From a virus, in the IMG/VR virus record IMGVR_UViG_3300043773_002253, positions 1-20,181 of that record: 20,181 nucleotides of DNA. The stretch is one strand, 5' to 3'. Numbering within the stretch: position 1 is the stretch's first letter; the number at the start of each line of letters is the position of its first letter. The position numbers and the translations under genes were made by a program. The notes under the pieces are model-generated. The model did no database searches and had not been told where the DNA came from. It saw only the letters and a list, made by a program, of their open reading frames with translations. Of the stretch, positions 12,728 through 20,148 are shown piece by piece.

Positions 12728-14116
12728 TCAGGCTTTCGGTGGTGTCGGGGTGTTCGGGTCCTTCTGGTACACCATGCCGGCGGTCTTGTCGGCCGTGGCC
12801 ACGTGCAGGCTCTTGAACCAGAACTTCAGCAGCTTGCCCTTGCCATACTTCTCGTGCCAGCCGTGCGTGTCGGCCATCACATCCAGCGGGCTCAGCAGTA
12901 TCTGGGCGTCCACCTGGTTGTCCATCACCTCAATGCTGTGCGCCACGCGCTTGTCGCTGCCGCTGCCGCTGCTGTTGCGGTCCTTGCTCGGCGTGGCACC
13001 GAACAGGCTCTGGTCCATAAAGGCGCGGATGATCTTCGCATCCACCTCCGCACTGTCCTCCACATAGGCGCCGGTGGGTATGTCCAGCTTGAAGGCGTTG
13101 ATCTTCCACAGGCTGCGGTACTCCTTCTTGCCCGGCACGGCCAGCTCATCGATCAGCATGTCCGTCAGCATCGTGCGGCCCACCTTCTCCTGCCCGGCTA
13201 TCCAGTTGTTGAAGGCGCGCAGCACTTCCTCGCGCTTGGCCTTCTTGTCCTCTGGCTTCATTTTGCTGAAGCCCGGGTAGGCCAGCTCCCACCACTCCTG
13301 GCCGATCTCCACATGGTACTTGATGTGGGCCAGGTTCACTGTCAGGTACAGCTTGGTCTTAATGATGGCGGCGGCCAGGTCCAGGTAGCCGCCATCGATC
13401 AGGCCGTGCCAGTCGCCCTTCGCGTAGTAGTCCGCATCGTCCAGCAGTACGCGCAGGGGCATAATGAAGCGGCCCTGGTTGCTCTTCAGCACCTGCCCGC
13501 TGGGGTCGTAGTAGGGGTCCAGGCACGGCAGCGTGATCGTGTCCTCGCTCGTCGTGCTGGCGCCGTTGGCCCACTTGCCGCTCAGGTAGGCGTTCTCGAT
13601 CCGGCCCGTCTTCTTGTTCTTCCGGCTCAGGCGGGTGCGTGTGCATTCCTGGTTGAACAGGCCCACCACCTTCCCATCGTAGTCCGTCTGCAGCTCCGCG
13701 AAGGCGTTGCCGTGGGTCTTGTACTCGATCGCGCTCTCCAGCAGGTACAGCATGATGTTCGTGCGCCGCAGGATCTGGTCGATCTCCAGCACCTGCATCA
13801 CCCGGCGCTTCTCTTCGCCGTTCTCGTCCACCTCGCTGGTGCCGTACAGCAGGCCCTGCCCGATCAGGCGCTTCGCCCACTTGTGTATCAGGGGCCGCAG
13901 CAGGTCGCTCCGGTCCAGTTCCTCCACCACCTGCTGCGGCCGCAGGTTGTTGTTGCCCCAAAGGGCCACCTCGCCGGTGCTGGTCACCAGTGGGTTGTCG
14001 TACTCCGTGCTTGTGGGTCCGAAGCGGCCGCCACGTGTGCGCCCCTCCATGGTGATCAGCGCTCCCACACCTTGGTGGAAGAGCAGTGATCCGTTGCCGC
14101 TTACATCGGTCAGCAT
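12728..14116 (-). CDS. Probable phage portal protein
   Basis: 462 aa from the ATG at 14116; a GTG one codon earlier is possible, but the ATG overlaps the preceding TGA (TGATG). Portal-like features include an N-terminal segment NNLRPQQVVEELDRSDLLRP and a first helical domain with IHKWAKRLIGQGLLYG. Next comes IEYKTHGNAFAELQTDYDGKVVGL, which matches the 'NaF.El..D..Gk' section of many portals and packaging-side head proteins. A clip/stem-like helical region follows. The Ser/Gly-rich linker at about 390-400 (DRNSSGSGSDKR) and a short C-terminus complete it. The portal is the dodecameric ring through which TerL pumps DNA and to which the tail attaches. Order (terminase, then this, then DUF6712-like and tail genes) supports the call. 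I rely on weak motifs plus context. Confidence 0.68.
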   Translation of the reverse strand: MLTDVSGNGSLLFHQGVGALITMEGRTRGGRFGPTSTEYDNPLVTSTGEVALWGNNNLRPQQVVEELDRSDLLRPLIHKWAKRLIGQGLLYGTSEVDENGEEKRRVMQVLEIDQILRRTNIMLYLLESAIEYKTHGNAFAELQTDYDGKVVGLFNQECTRTRLSRKNKKTGRIENAYLSGKWANGASTTSEDTITLPCLDPYYDPSGQVLKSNQGRFIMPLRVLLDDADYYAKGDWHGLIDGGYLDLAAAIIKTKLYLTVNLAHIKYHVEIGQEWWELAYPGFSKMKPEDKKAKREEVLRAFNNWIAGQEKVGRTMLTDMLIDELAVPGKKEYRSLWKINAFKLDIPTGAYVEDSAEVDAKIIRAFMDQSLFGATPSKDRNSSGSGSDKRVAHSIEVMDNQVDAQILLSPLDVMADTHGWHEKYGKGKLLKFWFKSLHVATADKTAGMVYQKDPNTPTPPKA

Positions 14117-14382
14117 CACATTACGGGTTGGCCGTTCACCCGCAGGATCAGGCGCAGGTGTACAGGGGTGGGGTGTCCGCTACCGTCGGCCGGCTTCACG
14201 GCTATCTGGCGGTTGCGCTGCAGACTGTGGCTCGCGCCGCAGCGCACCGCAGCGGCAAGGTGCTTCACCTTACCGCCCGTGCGCCTCGTGCGGTCCAGCG
14301 TGCACCAGCTGATGGAGAAGGGCACCGGGGCACCCCTCCCATCCACCTGGTCCATTACCTGAAGCGCTTCCCCCAAAACCAT
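14116..14382 (-). CDS. Small conserved phage protein upstream of portal
   Basis: An 88-aa protein, MVLGEALQVMDQVDGRGAPV. It is short and basic, with a pattern I recall from small proteins beside phage and transposable-element genes of Bacteroidota: 'FSISWCTLDRTRRTGGKV', a cysteine in a 'AVRCGASH' turn, and a C-terminal 'HLRLILRVNGQPV' strand. No function is known to me. The start at 14382 is supported by the shared 18-bp repeat lying exactly 31 nt upstream, the same spacing as at the packaging-block gene starting at 20099. A longer in-frame extension (to 14697) runs antiparallel-frame through radC and is rejected. Its stop overlaps the portal start (TGATG), so it is translationally coupled to the portal. 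It may be a head-assembly accessory, but this is inference from position. Confidence 0.72.
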   Translation of the reverse strand: MVLGEALQVMDQVDGRGAPVPFSISWCTLDRTRRTGGKVKHLAAAVRCGASHSLQRNRQIAVKPADGSGHPTPVHLRLILRVNGQPVM

Positions 14383-14413
14383 GGCGCCAAGGTCCGGCGC
14401 GGGTTTCCCGTGG

Positions 14414-14431
14414 CATAGGAACCGATTACCG
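14414..14431 (-). promoter_or_regulatory. 18-bp repeat, copy 1: candidate late-promoter/activator site
   Basis: Minus-strand sequence CGGTAATCGGTTCCTATG, identical over 18 bases to a second copy at 20131-20148. It starts one base after the radC TAG stop and ends 31 nt before the ATG at 14382. The other copy has the same 31-nt spacing to its own gene. No canonical Bacteroidota -33/-7 pair fits within the 18 bases, so a phage-specific sigma or activator recognition element is a better guess than a housekeeping promoter. Confidence 0.6.
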
Positions 14432-14432
14432 C

Positions 14433-14894
14433 CTACAGCATCCCGTTGTCCGCGAAGCTGTAGTAGCCGTTCCTGGTCATGATCACGTGGTCCAGCACGG
14501 CCAGGTCCAGCAGCCTGGCCCCATCCACCAGCTTCCGCGTCAGCCGGATGTCCTCCTCGCTCGGTCGCAGCTGCCCACTGGGGTGGTTGTGCGCCACAAT
14601 GATGCTGCTCGCAAGGCACTTCAGCGAGGCCGCGAAGATCACCTTCGGGTCCGCCACGGTCCCGTGCAGCCCTCCCTGGCTGGCCTTGAACACGCACTTC
14701 ACCCGGTTTCCCCGGTCCAGCATCACCACGTAGAACACCTCATAGGTCTCCATGGCCTGCTCAAAGAAGGGCAGCAGGATATCGTAAGTGGCGGCACTGG
14801 TGCTCACCAAGGGCCGTTCCTCCCGCAGCCTGTTCCGGTAAATGATCTCCACCTCGTTCACCAAGGTCAACTCCAACTGCATCTGCTTATCCAT
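14433..14894 (-). CDS. radC: RadC family JAB/MPN-domain protein
   Basis: 153 aa from the ATG at 14894 (MDKQMQLELTLVNEVEIIYR). The JAMM metal site is complete: Glu50 (METYEVFYVVMLD), His102 and His104 in AHNHPSG, Ser112, and Asp115 in PSEED. The usual DHVIMT section (Asp134-His135) follows. This is the C-terminal RadC (DUF2466) domain without the N-terminal HhH part of chromosomal RadC, the short form common on phages, plasmids and conjugative elements. The biochemical role of these proteins is not settled; peptidase-type or DNA-repair/recombination roles have been proposed. It is unusual among virion genes, lying between terminase and portal. An upstream in-frame extension to 15101 runs through the palindrome and is rejected. 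The outer palindrome arm lies 6 nt upstream of the ATG and could hide the start in mRNA. Confidence 0.9.
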   Translation of the reverse strand: MDKQMQLELTLVNEVEIIYRNRLREERPLVSTSAATYDILLPFFEQAMETYEVFYVVMLDRGNRVKCVFKASQGGLHGTVADPKVIFAASLKCLASSIIVAHNHPSGQLRPSEEDIRLTRKLVDGARLLDLAVLDHVIMTRNGYYSFADNGML

Positions 14895-14900
14895 CGGTCT

Positions 14901-15082
14901 GTGGTATTGGTTTGACCCGATACCCGGAGAATGGAGGCGGATGAGGGCAAGGAGGATGTGAACATGCTTCGCCATAACATGCGCAGCATGGCGAAGGATG
15001 TTCACGCGGTCCTTGAGGCCCATGGGTCTATCTACGCAGCCCGTTCCGCCTCCGTTCCAACCTTTGGTCACACCAATACCAC
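14901..15082. repeat. About 180-bp imperfect inverted repeat (palindrome) upstream of radC
   Basis: The outer arms GTGGTATTGGTTTGACC (14901-14917) and the complement of GGTCACACCAATACCAC (15066-15082) match at 16 of 17 positions. Middle arms match around GGAGGCGG (14933-14940) and CCGCCTCC (15046-15053). The centre is a near-perfect hairpin at 14958-15005: an 18-bp stem with one mismatch (GTGAACAT-CTTCGCCAT against ATGGCGAAG-ATGTTCAC) around a 12-nt loop. The right half has about 20 extra bases. No clear target-site duplication flanks it. It could be an extragenic palindrome or MITE-like element, or an RNA structure controlling radC. Confidence 0.75.
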
Positions 15083-15125
15083 CCTTCCCGAAGTGCCACA
15101 ACTGCCCATGCTACCGTAGCGTTTC

Positions 15126-15160
15126 AGGGCCGCCGGGCGGGCGGGTGGGAGGCGGCCCCT
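15126..15160 (+). other. G-quadruplex motif in the loop of an inverted repeat (element A)
   Basis: GGGCCGCC (15127-15134) and GGCGGCCC (15151-15158) form an 8-bp stem. The 16-nt loop contains GGGCGGGCGGGTGGG (15135-15149), a textbook four-tract G-quadruplex with single-base loops. The G-rich strand is plus, the template strand for the surrounding genes. The same design recurs at 16002-16034. Confidence 0.7.
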
Positions 15161-15187
15161 CCGTAGCTCTTCCACAGCGAAGCATGC

Positions 15188-15217
15188 ACCGAGGCCCGGA
15201 TCGCTCCGGGCCCCGGT
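15188..15217 (-). terminator. Strong hairpin with GNRA loop downstream of the small gene (terminator or processing hairpin)
   Basis: As minus-strand RNA this is a 13-bp stem (ACCGGGGCCCGGA with TCCGGGCCTCGGT, one G-U pair) closed by the tetraloop GCGA, a GNRA loop. It begins 13 nt after the stop of the 15231-15497 gene. The wobble pair is only allowed in minus-strand RNA, which supports that orientation. No U-run follows, so it may stall or protect RNA rather than terminate by the intrinsic route. Confidence 0.45.
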
Positions 15218-15230
15218 CCCTGGTGGTGGG

Positions 15231-15497
15231 TCAGGCCTTGGCCTTGCGGGTCCGCTTGGGCTTCTCCGCAGGGGGCTCGGCCACTTCGGCGGGCGCTTCG
15301 GTCTTCACCCGCACATAGGCGGCGTGCGAGCTGCCGAACTTGCTCTTCTCCTTGCGGGCCGCCACCGTGAACTTCAGGTAGCGCTTCCCCTCATACTCGA
15401 AGAAGTGCGGCTCCATCTTCTCCACGTCCAGGACCACGTCGATCAGGTCCCATTCGTTGTGCTTCGTGCCGTGTCCGATATACTGCTTGGTCTCCAT
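15231..15497 (-). CDS. Small Lys/Glu-rich protein of Bacteroidota phage type, unknown
   Basis: 88 aa from METKQYIGHGTKHNEWDLID. An 11-codon longer form from 15530 is possible. I prefer the inner ATG because the bases before it are A/C-rich (CAACAACACCAAAAACCC), as is common before Bacteroidota starts, and because the recognisable part of the protein begins there. The first about 65 residues read as a small beta domain (DLIDVVLDVEKMEPHFFEYE, GKRYLKFTVAARKEKSKFG). The last about 20 are a Pro/Ala/Lys tail ending KPKRTRKAKA that could bind nucleic acid. I recall similar small proteins in Bacteroidota mobile elements but know no function. It stands alone between two structured intergenic regions, so it probably has its own promoter. 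Confidence 0.7.
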   Translation of the reverse strand: METKQYIGHGTKHNEWDLIDVVLDVEKMEPHFFEYEGKRYLKFTVAARKEKSKFGSSHAAYVRVKTEAPAEVAEPPAEKPKRTRKAKA

Positions 15498-16001
15498 GGT
15501 TGTGTAGGGTTTTTGGTGTTGTTGAACCATGCATGGACAATTGCAGGGGCACCGCTGGGCCTATGCTGCTCGTGGCTTACCGGACCGCTCAACTTTTACG
15601 TGAGCAGGGAGGATATGACGCGAAACCCGTAGGGCGAACGCAGTGAAGGGCATGGCACTAGGCACTGCGGGCCACTGCGTCCTTTGCTATGGGTCAACTA
15701 GCCGGAAAACCGAAGCGGCCAAGGGGGCCTTAGCAGTACGGGCCACGGCACGTGCTACAACAGTGCGGTCCGGATCAGTGGGCCGGAGTGTGGAGAAGGG
15801 GCCAGCGCTTCCGAGTAGAGGGGCAGCAGCTACCGTTCACTGGTGGTCCCGCAAGGAGTAGTTCGGCGCCGCATGCCGCCGCGTGTGAAGCCCGGAGCGC
15901 CTCGTGGCCATGCCCTGGAGAAGCACTGCGCCGCAAGGCCAAGGCCCCACCACCGGGGCCCAAGCCCTGGAGCGGTCCAAGGCACCGGTGCATGCACAGC
16001 A

Positions 16002-16034
16002 GGTCCGCCGCGGGTGGGTGGGTGGAGGCGGACC
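16002..16034 (+). other. G-rich tract in the loop of an inverted repeat (element B)
   Basis: GGTCCGCC (16002-16009) and GGCGGACC (16027-16034) pair over 8 bp. The 17-nt loop holds GGGTGGGTGGGTGG followed by AGG, a three-plus-two-tract quadruplex candidate. Stem length, stem sequence (GG-CCGCC) and G-rich strand match element A at 15126-15160, although the tracts differ. Confidence 0.6.
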
Positions 16035-16063
16035 ACCGCGGGATCACCGCGGGCGCCTTCTTT

Positions 16064-16093
16064 GCTCCTTTCTTGGCGCGACAAGAAAGGAGC
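16064..16093. repeat. 12-bp perfect inverted repeat
   Basis: GCTCCTTTCTTG and CAAGAAAGGAGC enclose a 6-nt loop (GCGCGA). The pyrimidine/purine-rich stem is of a type I recall in extragenic dispersed hairpins of some high-GC Bacteroidota genomes. A short GGGC/GCCC pair can extend it. Confidence 0.7.
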
Positions 16094-16125
16094 GCCCGGC
16101 CTGTAACTCGTGCCGGGCGTGGCTT
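16093..16125 (+). terminator. Possible plus-strand intrinsic terminator
   Basis: CGCCCGGC (16093-16100) and GCCGGGCG (16112-16119) form an 8-bp GC stem with an 11-nt loop, followed on the plus strand by TGGCTTTTC. If used, it would end a plus-strand transcript running against the phage genes. The U-run is short and offset by four bases, so this is tentative. Confidence 0.3.
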
Positions 16126-16153
16126 TTCTGCTACTGTGGTCGTGGCAATTTAC

Positions 16154-16199
16154 ACCGGCACCAGCGCCAATGGTGGTAAACCCTTGGCGCTGTGCCGGT
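16154..16199. repeat. 16-bp inverted repeat with one bulge
   Basis: ACCGGCACCAGCGCCAA (16154-16170) pairs with TTGGCGCTGTGCCGGT (16184-16199); one C is bulged and the loop is 13 nt. There is no U-run on either side, so ordinary intrinsic termination is not indicated. Confidence 0.7.
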
Positions 16200-16206
16200 T
16201 GAGCCT

Positions 16207-16230
16207 GTGACCGTGCCCCAGCACGGTCAC
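16207..16230. repeat. 10-bp perfect hairpin
   Basis: GTGACCGTGC and GCACGGTCAC close a 4-nt loop (CCCA on plus, TGGG on minus). It lies 7 nt from the previous inverted repeat, so the two form a tandem hairpin pair about 120 nt downstream of terL. Confidence 0.65.
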
Positions 16231-16299
16231 GGAACGGCGTTAGCCCGCGCGGCGCTCTGTCGCGCTCTGGCAGCTGCCGGCCCCTCCCACGGGGATATC

Positions 16300-16326
16300 T
16301 GTACAAGGTGCCGTGGCCCCTGTACA
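16300..16326 (-). repeat. Inverted repeat just after terL
   Basis: TGTACAAGG and CCCTGTACA pair over 8 of 9 positions, starting 21 nt past the terL stop. No U-run follows on the minus strand. It may protect the 3' end of terL mRNA or be the first element of the structured region. Confidence 0.45.
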
Positions 16327-16347
16327 CTGACGTGCGTGAAGTTGATG

Positions 16348-17973
16348 CTAGCCGAAGGTGAGGCCCACAGATACTCTGCTACCTGCACCGAGGCGCAGGA
16401 ACCTACCGATCACCAGCAGGTCGCAGGCATCGGATAGGTGGGTGGTCTCTGCCTGGTCGGCGACCGGGTTCTTCTCGTCGGTCTTATCCTTCTCGAACCC
16501 ACGACGTGTCTGCCGTGCACCAGCCAGGCGCATCGATAACCGTGTCGGTTCTGTGTTGATGGCGTTGAAGCGCACGCTCGGTAGCTCTGCATCAGCATCG
16601 GCAAAGCGCCTACCCCAGAATACATACTTCTCATGGTGACCAGGGGCCTGTCCGATGTAGAACAGTTCCACCTCCCAGCCCAGCGATTCTAGCTCACGCT
16701 TCAGTTCCAGGATGAAGCCATACTCCCTCACCGCATCCTCACCCACCATGGTGTGATCATAGTTGATCACCACATACCGTGGTGTGTGGAACTGGTAGTA
16801 GTCGTGGAACTTCCGAGCCAGGTCCCGGATCTTCTGTGGATGCTTGACGAACACCTGGTTCAAGATGTTGAAGTCTTCGAACAGCTGGCCTACCACCAAG
16901 CAATTGAATGATGCACCGAAGTCAGGGGCCAGGTCTAATGGTATGCCTTCCACCAGGTCTCCATCCTGCCTGCAGTCGCTCAGTTCCTTCTCGCCTGTGA
17001 AGATCTCGTTCCCGGCTTGGTACACGTACTTGCTCTCGCTGGGGAAGTAGGTGTGCACATCGTCGTCCAGGTCAGGGTAGAAGCCACCCTCTACCCGATC
17101 GGGCCGCAGGTTCAGGATGCTGGTGCGGAACAGGTAGTCTGGCAGCAGTTGCTTCATCCGGTGGATGTACTCTACACCCAGCACCTCGATGTTGTCCAGG
17201 CTGCTGGCCATGGTGAAGTAGAGCGTGCCCTTGCGCAGGATGTTCAGCTGGTCTTCGAGGGTGCGGATGTGGCTCTGGTACACACGAGCGGATGCCGCGC
17301 TAACTGTGCCATCGGCGATGGCCTGGCGCTTCTTGCTGATCTCGAACTGGGTCGCCAGTATGAGGTCGATGAGCTTGGGGTCCATCAGCTTCTCCTCCTC
17401 GAGTATCCATCTGGCCGATGGGCTGGTGGGCATGTCGGTTGACAGGCATGTGCTGTGGTGGCAGCTCAGGTGGCCGAACCTATCCTTGTTGCCACGCATG
17501 GCCGGCATGAGCTCTTCATCGTGCTGTTCCTTCTTGAGGAACTTGGCCTCGTCGGCAATGACCCAGTCAATGCTGGGGCCGTTGGCGCTGCCGGGGTTCT
17601 GCTGCGATACCAGGATGCCGGCACTGCCGTTGCGGAACGCAAAGGCATTGTGCCAGTCCAGCGGGGTGAACAGTGGGTTCTCCCACCCCTTCAGCGGTCG
17701 TTCACGGATAACGAAGTCCCTGTTGAGCCGGTAGCCCAGGCGCTCGAGTCCGCGAACGAAAGGCGGCAACGTGCGAGTGAGTATCTGGGCGAACGAACGG
17801 CCCTCGATGGCGCCCATCGAGCGAGGCATTTGAAAGATGTTGTTCACCGCGAAGGGCGCAAGTAGCCCGTCGCTCTTACCGGTGCCCCTGCCCCAGATAG
17901 CGCGCACGTGCTGGGCCATGATGGCCATTGCCCGCAGCTGCGGCTTGTTGTAGTGGACCTTAGTGGCCTCCAT
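16348..17973 (-). CDS. terL: Terminase large subunit (packaging ATPase/nuclease)
   Basis: A 541-aa protein with both expected domains. The ATPase has Walker A WGRGTGKSDG (27-36) and Walker B WVIADEA (137-143, Asp-Glu at 141-142). The nuclease domain is RNase-H-like, with probable metal ligands at Asp351 (LAPDFGASFNCLVV), Asp406 (VINYDHTMVG) and Asp515/Asp518 (THLSDACDLLV). Length and motif order are normal for TerL. It pumps DNA into the prohead through the portal and cuts the concatemer. Its start overlaps the small-terminase-like gene by 14 nt. Codon choice is more mixed than in the tail block (TCG serine, GTC/GTT valine, CTC/CTA/TTG leucine), suggesting a different history. The gene is followed by the hairpin-dense region and not directly by portal. 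Confidence 0.93.
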   Translation of the reverse strand: MEATKVHYNKPQLRAMAIMAQHVRAIWGRGTGKSDGLLAPFAVNNIFQMPRSMGAIEGRSFAQILTRTLPPFVRGLERLGYRLNRDFVIRERPLKGWENPLFTPLDWHNAFAFRNGSAGILVSQQNPGSANGPSIDWVIADEAKFLKKEQHDEELMPAMRGNKDRFGHLSCHHSTCLSTDMPTSPSARWILEEEKLMDPKLIDLILATQFEISKKRQAIADGTVSAASARVYQSHIRTLEDQLNILRKGTLYFTMASSLDNIEVLGVEYIHRMKQLLPDYLFRTSILNLRPDRVEGGFYPDLDDDVHTYFPSESKYVYQAGNEIFTGEKELSDCRQDGDLVEGIPLDLAPDFGASFNCLVVGQLFEDFNILNQVFVKHPQKIRDLARKFHDYYQFHTPRYVVINYDHTMVGEDAVREYGFILELKRELESLGWEVELFYIGQAPGHHEKYVFWGRRFADADAELPSVRFNAINTEPTRLSMRLAGARQTRRGFEKDKTDEKNPVADQAETTHLSDACDLLVIGRFLRLGAGSRVSVGLTFG

Positions 17974-18565
17974 CGTCGTCGGGGCTGTCTGCCAGCTTTG
18001 CGATGGTGCCCATCTCGATCAGGCCTTTCTCGCGCTTCTCGCGCAGCACCTGGTCGAACAATGCGCGACGGTCCAGCTCCGACATGGGCGTGCCACCAAT
18101 AGTCTCCGGCAGGTACATTGGCTGCAGCGCCACTGGTCGCTTCAGTTCCAATGGGTCTACCGGTACATCATCCTTGCGACCGATGCCGGCGGCGTCGATG
18201 ATGACCTTCGCAATGCGTGCCACCTCGCCGAACTTGCCAGCCTTGCCGGCGCGCACCATGGTCTCGGTGAGGTAGTCCACCAGCATGTTGGCCAGGTAGT
18301 CCTTGTCGGTGCGTGGGCGGGTGCCCCATACGCGCCGTGCGCAGTCCAGGTCGCGGCGTGCTGTGCTCTCGCTGTAGCCGAACTTCTCCATGAGCATGGG
18401 GAGCACCTTGCGCTCGCTCATGTGCTCACGCAGCAGGTTGTCCGCAACGTTCCACCGTTCGAACAGCTCCATCTGCTTGTGGTCGAGCGGGCTTTCGGCC
18501 CGATCGGCCACTGGCAAGTGCAGCCAGGCGACAATGGCCTCGGCTTCGGTCAGGTTGGTCCTCAT
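17960..18565 (-). CDS. Probable terminase small subunit
   Basis: 201 aa from the ATG at 18565 (MRTNLTEAEAIVAWLHLPVA). The longer frame from 18661 is rejected because the ATG here overlaps the upstream TGA (ATGA). A helix-turn-helix-like segment is visible at about residues 58-78 (LMEKFGYSESTARRDLDCAR), as expected for the DNA-recognition part of small terminases. A helical central region follows (oligomerisation-like, KDYLANMLVDYLTETMVRAG). The C-terminal part is acidic (DSPDDDGG). It directly precedes and overlaps terL by 14 nt, the usual place for terS. It would bind the packaging start site and load TerL. Sequence identity to known TerS is not visible to me; the call rests on HTH, size and position. 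Confidence 0.72.
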   Translation of the reverse strand: MRTNLTEAEAIVAWLHLPVADRAESPLDHKQMELFERWNVADNLLREHMSERKVLPMLMEKFGYSESTARRDLDCARRVWGTRPRTDKDYLANMLVDYLTETMVRAGKAGKFGEVARIAKVIIDAAGIGRKDDVPVDPLELKRPVALQPMYLPETIGGTPMSELDRRALFDQVLREKREKGLIEMGTIAKLADSPDDDGGH

Positions 18566-18828
18566 TGGCTGTCGATCTTCCGCAGGAGGTCCGCGGCCAT
18601 TTGCTGGGCCGGTGTACTGTGCCTGCGGGCGGTGGTGAGAATGCTTTCGTGCAGCTCGCACTTGGTGAGCATGCGCCCTTTGCGGATGGCCTTGCCCAGC
18701 TCGTTATCGCGTGATGACAGTGCGCGCTGCACCGTCATGGCGGGCAGTTCCAGCACGTCGTTCAGCTCTTCGTCCGTGAGGAGCAGGCTGGCGAAATACT
18801 CGGCCTCCTTCAGTTCTTCCTCATTCAT
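18562..18828 (-). CDS. Small helical protein of packaging operon, HTH-like
   Basis: An 88-aa acidic/helical protein, MNEEELKEAEYFASLLLTDE. Residues 18-50 (TDEELNDVLELPAMTVQRAL) have the spacing of a small helix-turn-helix, and the C-terminus is a further helix ending in AADLLRKIDSQ. I recall similar small proteins just before terminase genes in Bacteroidota phages; a DNA-binding or packaging-accessory role is a guess. It overlaps the phospholipase-D-like gene by 8 nt and the small terminase by 4 nt, which makes it a confident gene despite its size. It could itself be a second terminase-small-like component. Confidence 0.7.
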   Translation of the reverse strand: MNEEELKEAEYFASLLLTDEELNDVLELPAMTVQRALSSRDNELGKAIRKGRMLTKCELHESILTTARRHSTPAQQMAADLLRKIDSQ

Positions 18829-19417
18829 GGTCGAAGGGCTTGGCGCCGTCCATCACGGCATCGATCCAGGTGCGCTCGGCGATGGCCTGCTCGCGGTGTG
18901 TGCATACCACGTACTTCTCGATGCGTGGGTTGCGGGTGAAGTTGGCCGACCCGCTCACGGTGACGCCCCACTTGTCGTTGAGCACCACGATGCACTTCGC
19001 GTGGATCTTGGTAAGCCTCACCTGCAGGTTGAACCTGGCCAGCTGGTGAGCTGCAGGGTTCATCGCTTCCACGCGCTCGCTGAACAGGGCTCGAAGGGAC
19101 AGGATGCGCCCCTCTTCCATGTGCTGCAGGATGGTGCGCACAGGCTCTTCGGTGATGGTCCAGCTGGTGATCCACACGCGGGCGGGGCCGGTGTGGTCCA
19201 GGATATGCGTGAGCATATCGTGCATGGACCACTTGGCGAAGCTGGGCAGGTGGATGTGCTCATTGTGGTTCAAGGCGCCCACCAGCTCCTGCAGGGTGCT
19301 GTTCTTGTGGCCGATGGAGCTCCTTACGTTGCCGGCCACACGTGTCGCCTCGGGCTGTGGTGCGCCCAGGTCCTCTTCGGACGTGCCGGTGCGGATATCA
19401 TTACGCCGGAAGAGCAT
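18821..19417 (-). CDS. Phospholipase-D-like (single HxK motif) protein
   Basis: A 198-aa protein. The C-terminal half has the PLD signature: His139-x-Lys141 in KIHAKCIVVLNDKWG, followed by SGSANFT (155-161) and NPRIEKYVV. The earlier part has WITSWTITEEP and LRALFSERVE strands and helices typical of one half of a PLD fold. One motif only means the active site would form from a dimer, as in Nuc-type nucleases and some restriction endonucleases. Substrate may be DNA (nuclease) or lipid; near terminase a DNA role seems likelier, by inference. It overlaps the 232-aa gene by 17 nt and the next gene by 8 nt. The acidic residue after HxK sits at 148 (LND), two residues later than the usual HxKxxxxD spacing. 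Confidence 0.8.
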   Translation of the reverse strand: MLFRRNDIRTGTSEEDLGAPQPEATRVAGNVRSSIGHKNSTLQELVGALNHNEHIHLPSFAKWSMHDMLTHILDHTGPARVWITSWTITEEPVRTILQHMEEGRILSLRALFSERVEAMNPAAHQLARFNLQVRLTKIHAKCIVVLNDKWGVTVSGSANFTRNPRIEKYVVCTHREQAIAERTWIDAVMDGAKPFDHE

Positions 19418-20099
19418 CGATGAGGGCCTTGAGTTCTTCGCGCTCCTTCTCCCAGAGCTGGCTCTTTGCCGGGGATACCTTGCGGGAGCCCGATCGGGCG
19501 CGGCTCAGGTAGCTCTCAATGGTCTTCAGCCGCTTCACCAGCTCCACGCTGTTGCGTGTTGCTGCCGGTTGTATGGCCGGTGCAGCTTCGCCGGGATCCT
19601 TCCCGGTGGCCTTCCACGCATCCAGGCGGGCGTAGGCGCTTACGATACGGTCGTCCAGCTCCACTACGATGAGGGCATCGCGCAGGCGGTCCTCGTCGCT
19701 GGGCAGGCTTTCCAGGCGGTGCCGGTAGTAGTCCATCTCGCGCAGGTCGCGCTTGGCCTGGTCGTGCACGGCCTGCAGCGCTTGGGGCAGCTGCTCTTCC
19801 TTGAACCCATCATTGCGCGGGTCGCGGGCCTGTTGCTTGCGCTCGGCGGCAATGTCCGCCTTGGTAGGCGTGGGGGGGGCTACGTTGCGCACCTGCAGTA
19901 CCTGGGCTTTCTCCACGTGCAGGCGGTGGAGCTCCTTCAGGTGGTCCACCAGCTCTTCGCGGCTCACACTGGTCTCGCCCAGCTCCAGGAAGTACAGGTC
20001 GGCGGCATCCAGCGTGCCGTGTGCCTTCAGCAGCTCAAGACCCTGCGCATAGGTGCGTGGGCCTTGGAGCCATGCGTGAATGCGTTGTGCGGCCGACAT
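19401..20099 (-). CDS. Helical protein, first gene of packaging block, unknown
   Basis: 232 aa, MSAAQRIHAWLQGPRTYAQG. Almost entirely helical and charged. Residues 1-60 look like a small helical module (AWLQGPRTYAQGLELLKAHG... ETSVSREELVDHLKELHRLH), a start I associate with proteins beside terminase genes in Bacteroidota phages. Residues 80-150 are Gln/Arg/Glu-rich (DIAAERKQQARDPRNDGFKE), and a final helical pair reaches the end. No catalytic motif is visible. It opens the block; its ATG lies 31 nt downstream of the 18-bp repeat, which supports the start chosen. It overlaps the phospholipase-D-like gene by 17 nt, so it is in the packaging operon. Function unknown; a scaffold or packaging accessory are possible guesses only. 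Confidence 0.78.
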   Translation of the reverse strand: MSAAQRIHAWLQGPRTYAQGLELLKAHGTLDAADLYFLELGETSVSREELVDHLKELHRLHVEKAQVLQVRNVAPPTPTKADIAAERKQQARDPRNDGFKEEQLPQALQAVHDQAKRDLREMDYYRHRLESLPSDEDRLRDALIVVELDDRIVSAYARLDAWKATGKDPGEAAPAIQPAATRNSVELVKRLKTIESYLSRARSGSRKVSPAKSQLWEKEREELKALIDALPA

Positions 20100-20130
20100 G
20101 CTGCGAAACTCGCTGCATGCGGCCGGGCAT

Positions 20131-20148
20131 CATAGGAACCGATTACCG
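20131..20148 (-). promoter_or_regulatory. 18-bp repeat, copy 2: candidate late-promoter/activator site
   Basis: Minus-strand CGGTAATCGGTTCCTATG, identical to copy 1 at 14414-14431, ending exactly 31 nt before the ATG at 20099. The bases between repeat and ATG differ at the two sites, so only the 18 bases and the spacing are conserved. The first bases carry the stop of the upstream gene fragment. Confidence 0.6.

Follow-up and report, generated by a model that had tools for sequence, protein, structure and literature searches.

Middle promoters of phage T4 and late promoters of phages Mu and P2 depend on the activators MotA, C, and Ogr, respectively; the host -10/-7 box is kept and the upstream element is the site of the phage activator. 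For C of phage Mu, see also PMC4461284. In Bacteroidota, the TAnnTTTG box occupies positions -12 to -5 in Flavobacterium psychrophilum (PMC9723704), and in B. fragilis the -7 element goes together with TTTG at about -33 (PMC7366714).

The window analysed here, a viral DNA stretch of 20,181 nucleotides (IMG/VR record IMGVR_UViG_3300043773_002253), contains two copies of an 18-mer, each followed by a -7-like box and the first gene of a late block. The sites resemble promoters of the Bacteroidota primary sigma factor, sigma-ABfr (TTTG at -33, TAnnTTTG at -7), in the kind of -7 box and in how far this lies from the start (PMC9723704, PMC7366714), and differ from them in having a longer phage element, either TGTCCTTT or a phage-specific variant, in the -33 place and a rigid gap of 20 bp. 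From sequence comparison we consider it likely, with good confidence, that the 18-mers are the upstream halves of two activator-dependent late promoters, in which a phage site would replace the host -33 box.

The repeated 18-mer and its distance to a -7-like box

A scan of the whole window recovered two exact copies of the 18-mer CGGTAATCGGTTCCTATG, both on the minus strand (Table 1), as the first-pass annotation had reported, with 0 expected in shuffled sequences. The window holds no third copy at up to three mismatches. The two 31-nt spacers, of differing sequence, that were said to lead to the ATG codons at 14382 and 20099 are likewise present. These codons had been described as opening the portal and packaging blocks. 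Both stand at block starts, but the portal gene is not itself opened by the first: ATG 14382 belongs to the 88-aa gene, which the portal gene overlaps, starting at about 14116-14119. The placement of each copy directly at the end of the preceding gene is exact for copy 2, which contains the stop codon of that gene (TAA, 20145-20143), whereas the radC stop codon (14435-14433) ends 1 nt ahead of copy 1.

Table 1. Positions of the repeat copies, boxes, and neighbouring genes in the window
Feature	Position	Strand	Description
Copy 1, 18-mer CGGTAATCGGTTCCTATG	14414..14431	-	Phage-specific 5' part and TCCTAT core (14420-14415), -33 region; exact repeat
-7-like box GACCTTGG	14387..14394	-	2 mismatches from TAnnTTTG; 20 nt after TCCTAT; 12 nt before ATG 14382
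88-aa gene, first of portal block	14116..14382	-	Predicted leaderless start
Portal protein gene	12728..14119	-	PHROG portal, E=1.6e-4
RadC-like gene directly upstream of copy 1	14433..15101	-	PF04002, E=2.6e-35
Copy 2, 18-mer	20131..20148	-	TCCTAT core 20137-20132; exact repeat
-7-like box GAGTTTCG	20104..20111	-	2 mismatches from TAnnTTTG; 20 nt after TCCTAT; 12 nt before ATG 20099
232-aa gene, first of terminase block	19401..20099	-	Ahead of PLD-like nuclease and terminase genes
PLD-like endonuclease gene, terminase block	18821..19417	-	phrog_16945 endonuclease, E=1.2e-16
Terminase large subunit	16348..17973	-	phrog_2, E=4.9e-5

Searches with the terminase large subunit (TerL) led to the two closest relatives. 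Locus L008 is contig C48 of the Bacteroidetes MAG G001 and has 64% identity; L047 is a viral contig of 5.4 kb and has 71% identity. Orthologues of the 88-aa gene are 72% (G001) and 47% identical and the start is conserved; because the G001 orthologue is this similar and has a matching start, we take the 88-aa gene to be a real gene. The 232-aa gene has orthologues in L008 and L047, 44% and 43% identical, also with a conserved start. The RadC-like JAB protein gene is located within the late region, between the terminase and the portal, and this arrangement recurs on G001 contig C21 and on contig C108 of the more distant relative G012.

In the window, the gap between the TCCTAT of either copy and the degenerate -7 box of host type downstream of it is exactly 20 nt, and the 31-nt spacer is composed of 19 nt from the 18-mer to the box and 12 nt from the box start to the ATG. 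A sequence fitting nAnnTTnG, with one mismatch in two cases, starts exactly 19 nt after the 18-mer at all seven sites in the window, G001, and L047, and this distance is kept even at two G001 sites that have no ATG at +31. Wherever an ATG is present, the box starts 12-13 nt ahead of it, and the gap from TCCTWT to the box is 20 nt. This refines the initial description: the distance that is fixed in the first place is the one to a -7 box of host type, the ATG coming second. Among 221 crude gene predictions in G001, TAnnTTTG (at most one mismatch) peaks exactly 12 nt before the ATG, with 8 occurrences vs 0 in the control. The 31-nt spacing can so be read as the box geometry plus a start codon at or beside the first base of the message. 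As the box begins 12 nt before the ATG, leaderless mRNAs are predicted here.

Sites in relatives and in a wider class of Bacteroidota phages

The G001 prophage contains four copies of the variant GGTAAACGGTTCCTTT, two of them at orthologues of window genes. Searching the whole of G001 for GGTAAWCSGTTCCTWT at up to one mismatch gave four matches, three on C48 and one on C21; C21 shares the gene order 99-aa, radC, 88-aa, portal with the window, so that it very probably belongs with C48 to a single prophage. The element orthologous to copy 1 is on C21 (L132:1536), with the identical 31-nt spacer to the 88-aa orthologue, and that of copy 2 is at L008:7941, 32 nt from the 232-aa orthologue. The other two G001 copies lie ahead of a long fibre-like gene and of a block leading into S49 protease and capsid genes. 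In L047 a weak version of the 18-mer (11/18) at position 1333, also orthologous to copy 2, has a spacer of exactly 31 nt. Relatives thus carry further copies ahead of late genes or blocks, four in G001 and a weak one in L047, as a scan had been proposed to establish. The accompanying proposal of a kept 31-nt spacing to start codons applies to the G001 88-aa gene and to L047; at the G001 orthologue of the 232-aa gene the spacing is 32 nt, and the two G001 sites mentioned above have no ATG at +31.

Within IMG/VR, the exact 18-mer was found in no contig besides that of the window, and the variant motif followed by N29-36 and ATG was found in none; protein scans with the 232-aa and 88-aa genes returned few or no viral relatives. 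The motif is not a host-genome repeat: across the rest of the G001 family, matches occur at roughly the rate of the reversed controls, and those with a readable context look like chance matches in coding sequence. That count leaves out two matches in a repeat-rich stretch of contig C33 of G029, another genome of this family. The contig (L153) carries two diverged repeat units on its minus strand, at about 830-850 and 1610-1630, both containing GGTAAACCRTTCCTTT and, equally far from it, an ATG.

The window motif is absent from G012 (TerL identity 48%). There, each of the two orthologous genes has CCCTCCGTGTAGTTTG ahead of it, as do two other late genes; the box follows this element at 19 nt in three of the sites and at 20 nt in the fourth. 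The element sequence differs among related phages (GGTAAWCSGTTCCT vs CCCTCCGTGTAG) and its position is conserved, as expected if activator specificity changes. In G004, CCCTCCGTGTAG occurs once, ahead of the 232-aa orthologue, at a different distance. Compared with G012, it is shifted upstream by about 12 bp at this locus (L158, G004:C29, 12630-12705, minus strand), and another T-rich segment fills the usual -33 place; it is possibly an activator site displaced by about one helical turn.

Several non-coding features were observed near these blocks. The window hairpin CCTTTCTTGTCGCGCCAAGAAAGG (16067-16090, minus strand) lies in a non-coding stretch of about 800 nt between terL and the 99-aa gene; a matching hairpin precedes the 99-aa gene on G001 C21 (174-197), the sole such match in G001, and G012 has a similar one. 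Downstream of terL, positions 15531-16347 of the window are GC-rich over their whole length and show no clear minus-strand gene; L047 (GGGGCCGGCARCTGCCA...GCGCGACAGAGCGCCG) and G012 conserve part of this stretch, which is possibly a structured RNA or regulatory region. A Flavo-1 RNA (RF01705) is located just after terL in L047 (5121-5203, minus strand), and a Flavo-1-like sequence was recognised by eye near 1.5 kb of G001 C48. Terminator-like hairpins followed by T-rich sequence, at 7540-7575 of L008 and 1293-1328 of L047, are situated shortly before the predicted terminase-block promoter and fit separate late operons.

An unsupervised search of the TerL relatives for repeated 15-mers followed by the box gave 143 pairs vs 76 in reversed sequence, and exposed the recurring element TGTCCTTT. 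On the late strand, 130 of the 202 occurrences of TGTCCTTT, a number that includes some duplicate loci and comes from related phages rather than independent samples, are separated from a box (at most one mismatch) by exactly 20 nt; each of the other gaps yields 0-2 boxes, and three controls gave 0-1 at gap 20. TCCTTT-N20-box is found in 74/107 non-redundant loci, 156 sites in all, and the strict TCCTTT form is missing from the remaining 33. The class logo reads tTGTCCTTT-N20-TAnnTTTG, the box being T65 A93 nn T83 T99 T86 G94 (per cent). Since the logo sites were chosen with at most one mismatch, using the core and the box for selection, what it adds is that TG precedes the core and that the gap carries no signal. 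Only 22/156 sites fall inside a 100-aa ORF, as against 621/780 random positions, which places the sites between genes. The commonest distance from the box start to the ATG is 12 nt (35 sites), and a second group has 21-35 nt.

On the late-gene strand, both window copies combine the TCCTWT core with a box that follows after exactly 20 nt. The canonical TG before TCCTTT is replaced in the window by GGT preceding TCCTAT, and TAnnTTTG, found near gene starts in the superfamily, is here represented by boxes with two mismatches. By its sequence, the window element is a variant of the TGTCCTTT-N20-TAnnTTTG class. TTTG at about -33 is present only in the G012 type, and elsewhere TCCTAT(G) or TGTCCTTT takes its place.

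Among isolated phages, Cellulophaga phage Ingeline_1 has five sites, Bacteroides phage BT-TP2 three and one CGTCCTTT, Leef_1 two, and Porphyromonas phage022a two and one variant, some of their boxes having one mismatch; phage 6H has no sites, and laban6-1 one-mismatch forms only. A recognisable form of the signal with identical spacing is present in dozens of related Bacteroidota viruses, isolates included. Unlike sigma-ABfr promoters, the element is found in phage late regions: the exact pattern has 25 matches in 396 genomes sampled across Bacteroidota, not above the reversed control, and is therefore not a general host promoter.

A candidate activator and competing readings

The gene directly ahead of the first site in G001 encodes a protein of about 156 residues, with a G012 counterpart in the matching place. 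An iterated profile search found homologues in 69/107 non-redundant relatives, their gene in most cases some 0.5 kb ahead of the first site, as in L030, L107, L117, L123, L015, and L103. Of the seven named-phage records that were searched, six have a member of the family (weak in 6H); the window, a fragment, does not contain the gene. Pfam and PHROGs offer no name for the protein. Examined for a DNA-binding (HTH) fold, its confidently predicted structure (pLDDT 91.9) has three C-terminal helices, and the PDB holds no significant match to it by sequence or fold. In a comparison of phages that carry the canonical element with those that lack it, the two most strongly associated alignment columns were adjacent lysines, both in the C-terminal-most helix (uncorrected p = 0.0025 and 0.0046), an association lost after multiple-testing correction. 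A link between these lysines and element type is suggestive only, because many columns were tested and relatedness was uncontrolled. Position and conservation before the first late promoter make this protein a candidate for the activator. Profile search also assigns gp8 of BT-TP2 to the family; its gene is located just before the capsid block, and its label, 'transcriptional regulator', comes from automatic annotation.

A phage-specific site stands in place of the upstream sigma box ahead of several late operons. Host RNA polymerase with the Bacteroidota primary sigma factor would recognise only the -7 box (TAnnTTTG-like), and the phage element, with the core TCCTWT here and TGTCCTTT in most relatives, would substitute for the host -33 box; its core, at about -38/-40 to -33, would end exactly 20 bp before the -7 box. 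An activator made late in the early phase would bind the element and recruit the polymerase, and the fibre, protease/capsid, terminase, and portal blocks would be switched on together, here from boxes at -12 relative to the ATG and with leaderless mRNAs. Comparative evidence (orthologous starts, fixed geometry, many relatives) supports the original proposal of a phage-specific promoter or activator site coordinating late blocks. What the sequences themselves show is the repeats with their geometry and strand bias, the placement at orthologues, and the recurrence in relatives; that the sites act as promoters, by activation rather than repression and with leaderless starts, is what we infer from them.

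The alternative that survives best, although we think it unlikely, is an operator at which a phage repressor would silence a host-type promoter that is otherwise active during lysogeny; derepression would then turn on the late genes. Overlap with the -33 region is what one would expect of a repressor site, and these phages are often prophages, but the conserved logo has TGTCCTTT where the host TTTG would be, and such a promoter would be weak on its own. Moreover, the sites are single and not palindromic, and their geometry is fixed to one base pair on a single strand, as expected for polymerase contact. A phage-encoded alternative sigma factor reading the whole promoter is more improbable still, because the -7 box is that of the host, the primary-sigma consensus TAnnTTTG (PMC9723704); bipartite promoters with fixed spacing are what sigma factors read, but the limited set of early genes scanned yielded no sigma-like gene. 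A cos/pac, recombination, or gene-cassette site, suggested by one copy lying near the terminase genes and both at gene junctions, was rejected as very unlikely in view of the four orthologous copies per phage at block starts on one strand, the fixed distance to the promoter box, and the two different sequences at matching places in different phages. Chance or a by-product of coding sequence, for which the restriction to two copies in 20 kb might speak, has a negligible probability and is already refuted by the shuffles and by recurrence in relatives.

The activator-dependent reading may extend to a large clade of Bacteroidota phages sharing one late switch, in which a novel-fold activator family encoded before the late genes would read the -33-replacing element, the element would be swapped together with recognition-helix residues, and many messages would be leaderless; the chances of this broader picture seem to us evenly divided.

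Relation to described late promoters

Neither the element nor the protein is described in the open-access papers searched, a coverage that mostly excludes subscription journals, and the same literature has no account of how late genes are transcribed in these Bacteroidota phages, those of gut and oral Bacteroides and Porphyromonas among them. Systems of this kind are known; what appears to be new is the class, the form specific to this phylum, and the candidate activator. The pattern of TGTCCTTT, 20 nt, and TAnnTTTG marks late operons of Bacteroidota phages and points to a candidate master activator mostly missed by annotation pipelines. It also provides a testable promoter for induction studies and for phage-responsive reporters in laboratory strains of Bacteroides or Cellulophaga, which makes late-gene control in these viruses accessible at the bench.

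The sites share with the MotA, C, and Ogr systems a retained host -10/-7 box, a replaced upstream element, and the coordination of several late operons. They differ from those systems in phylum, sigma factor, site sequence, and candidate protein.
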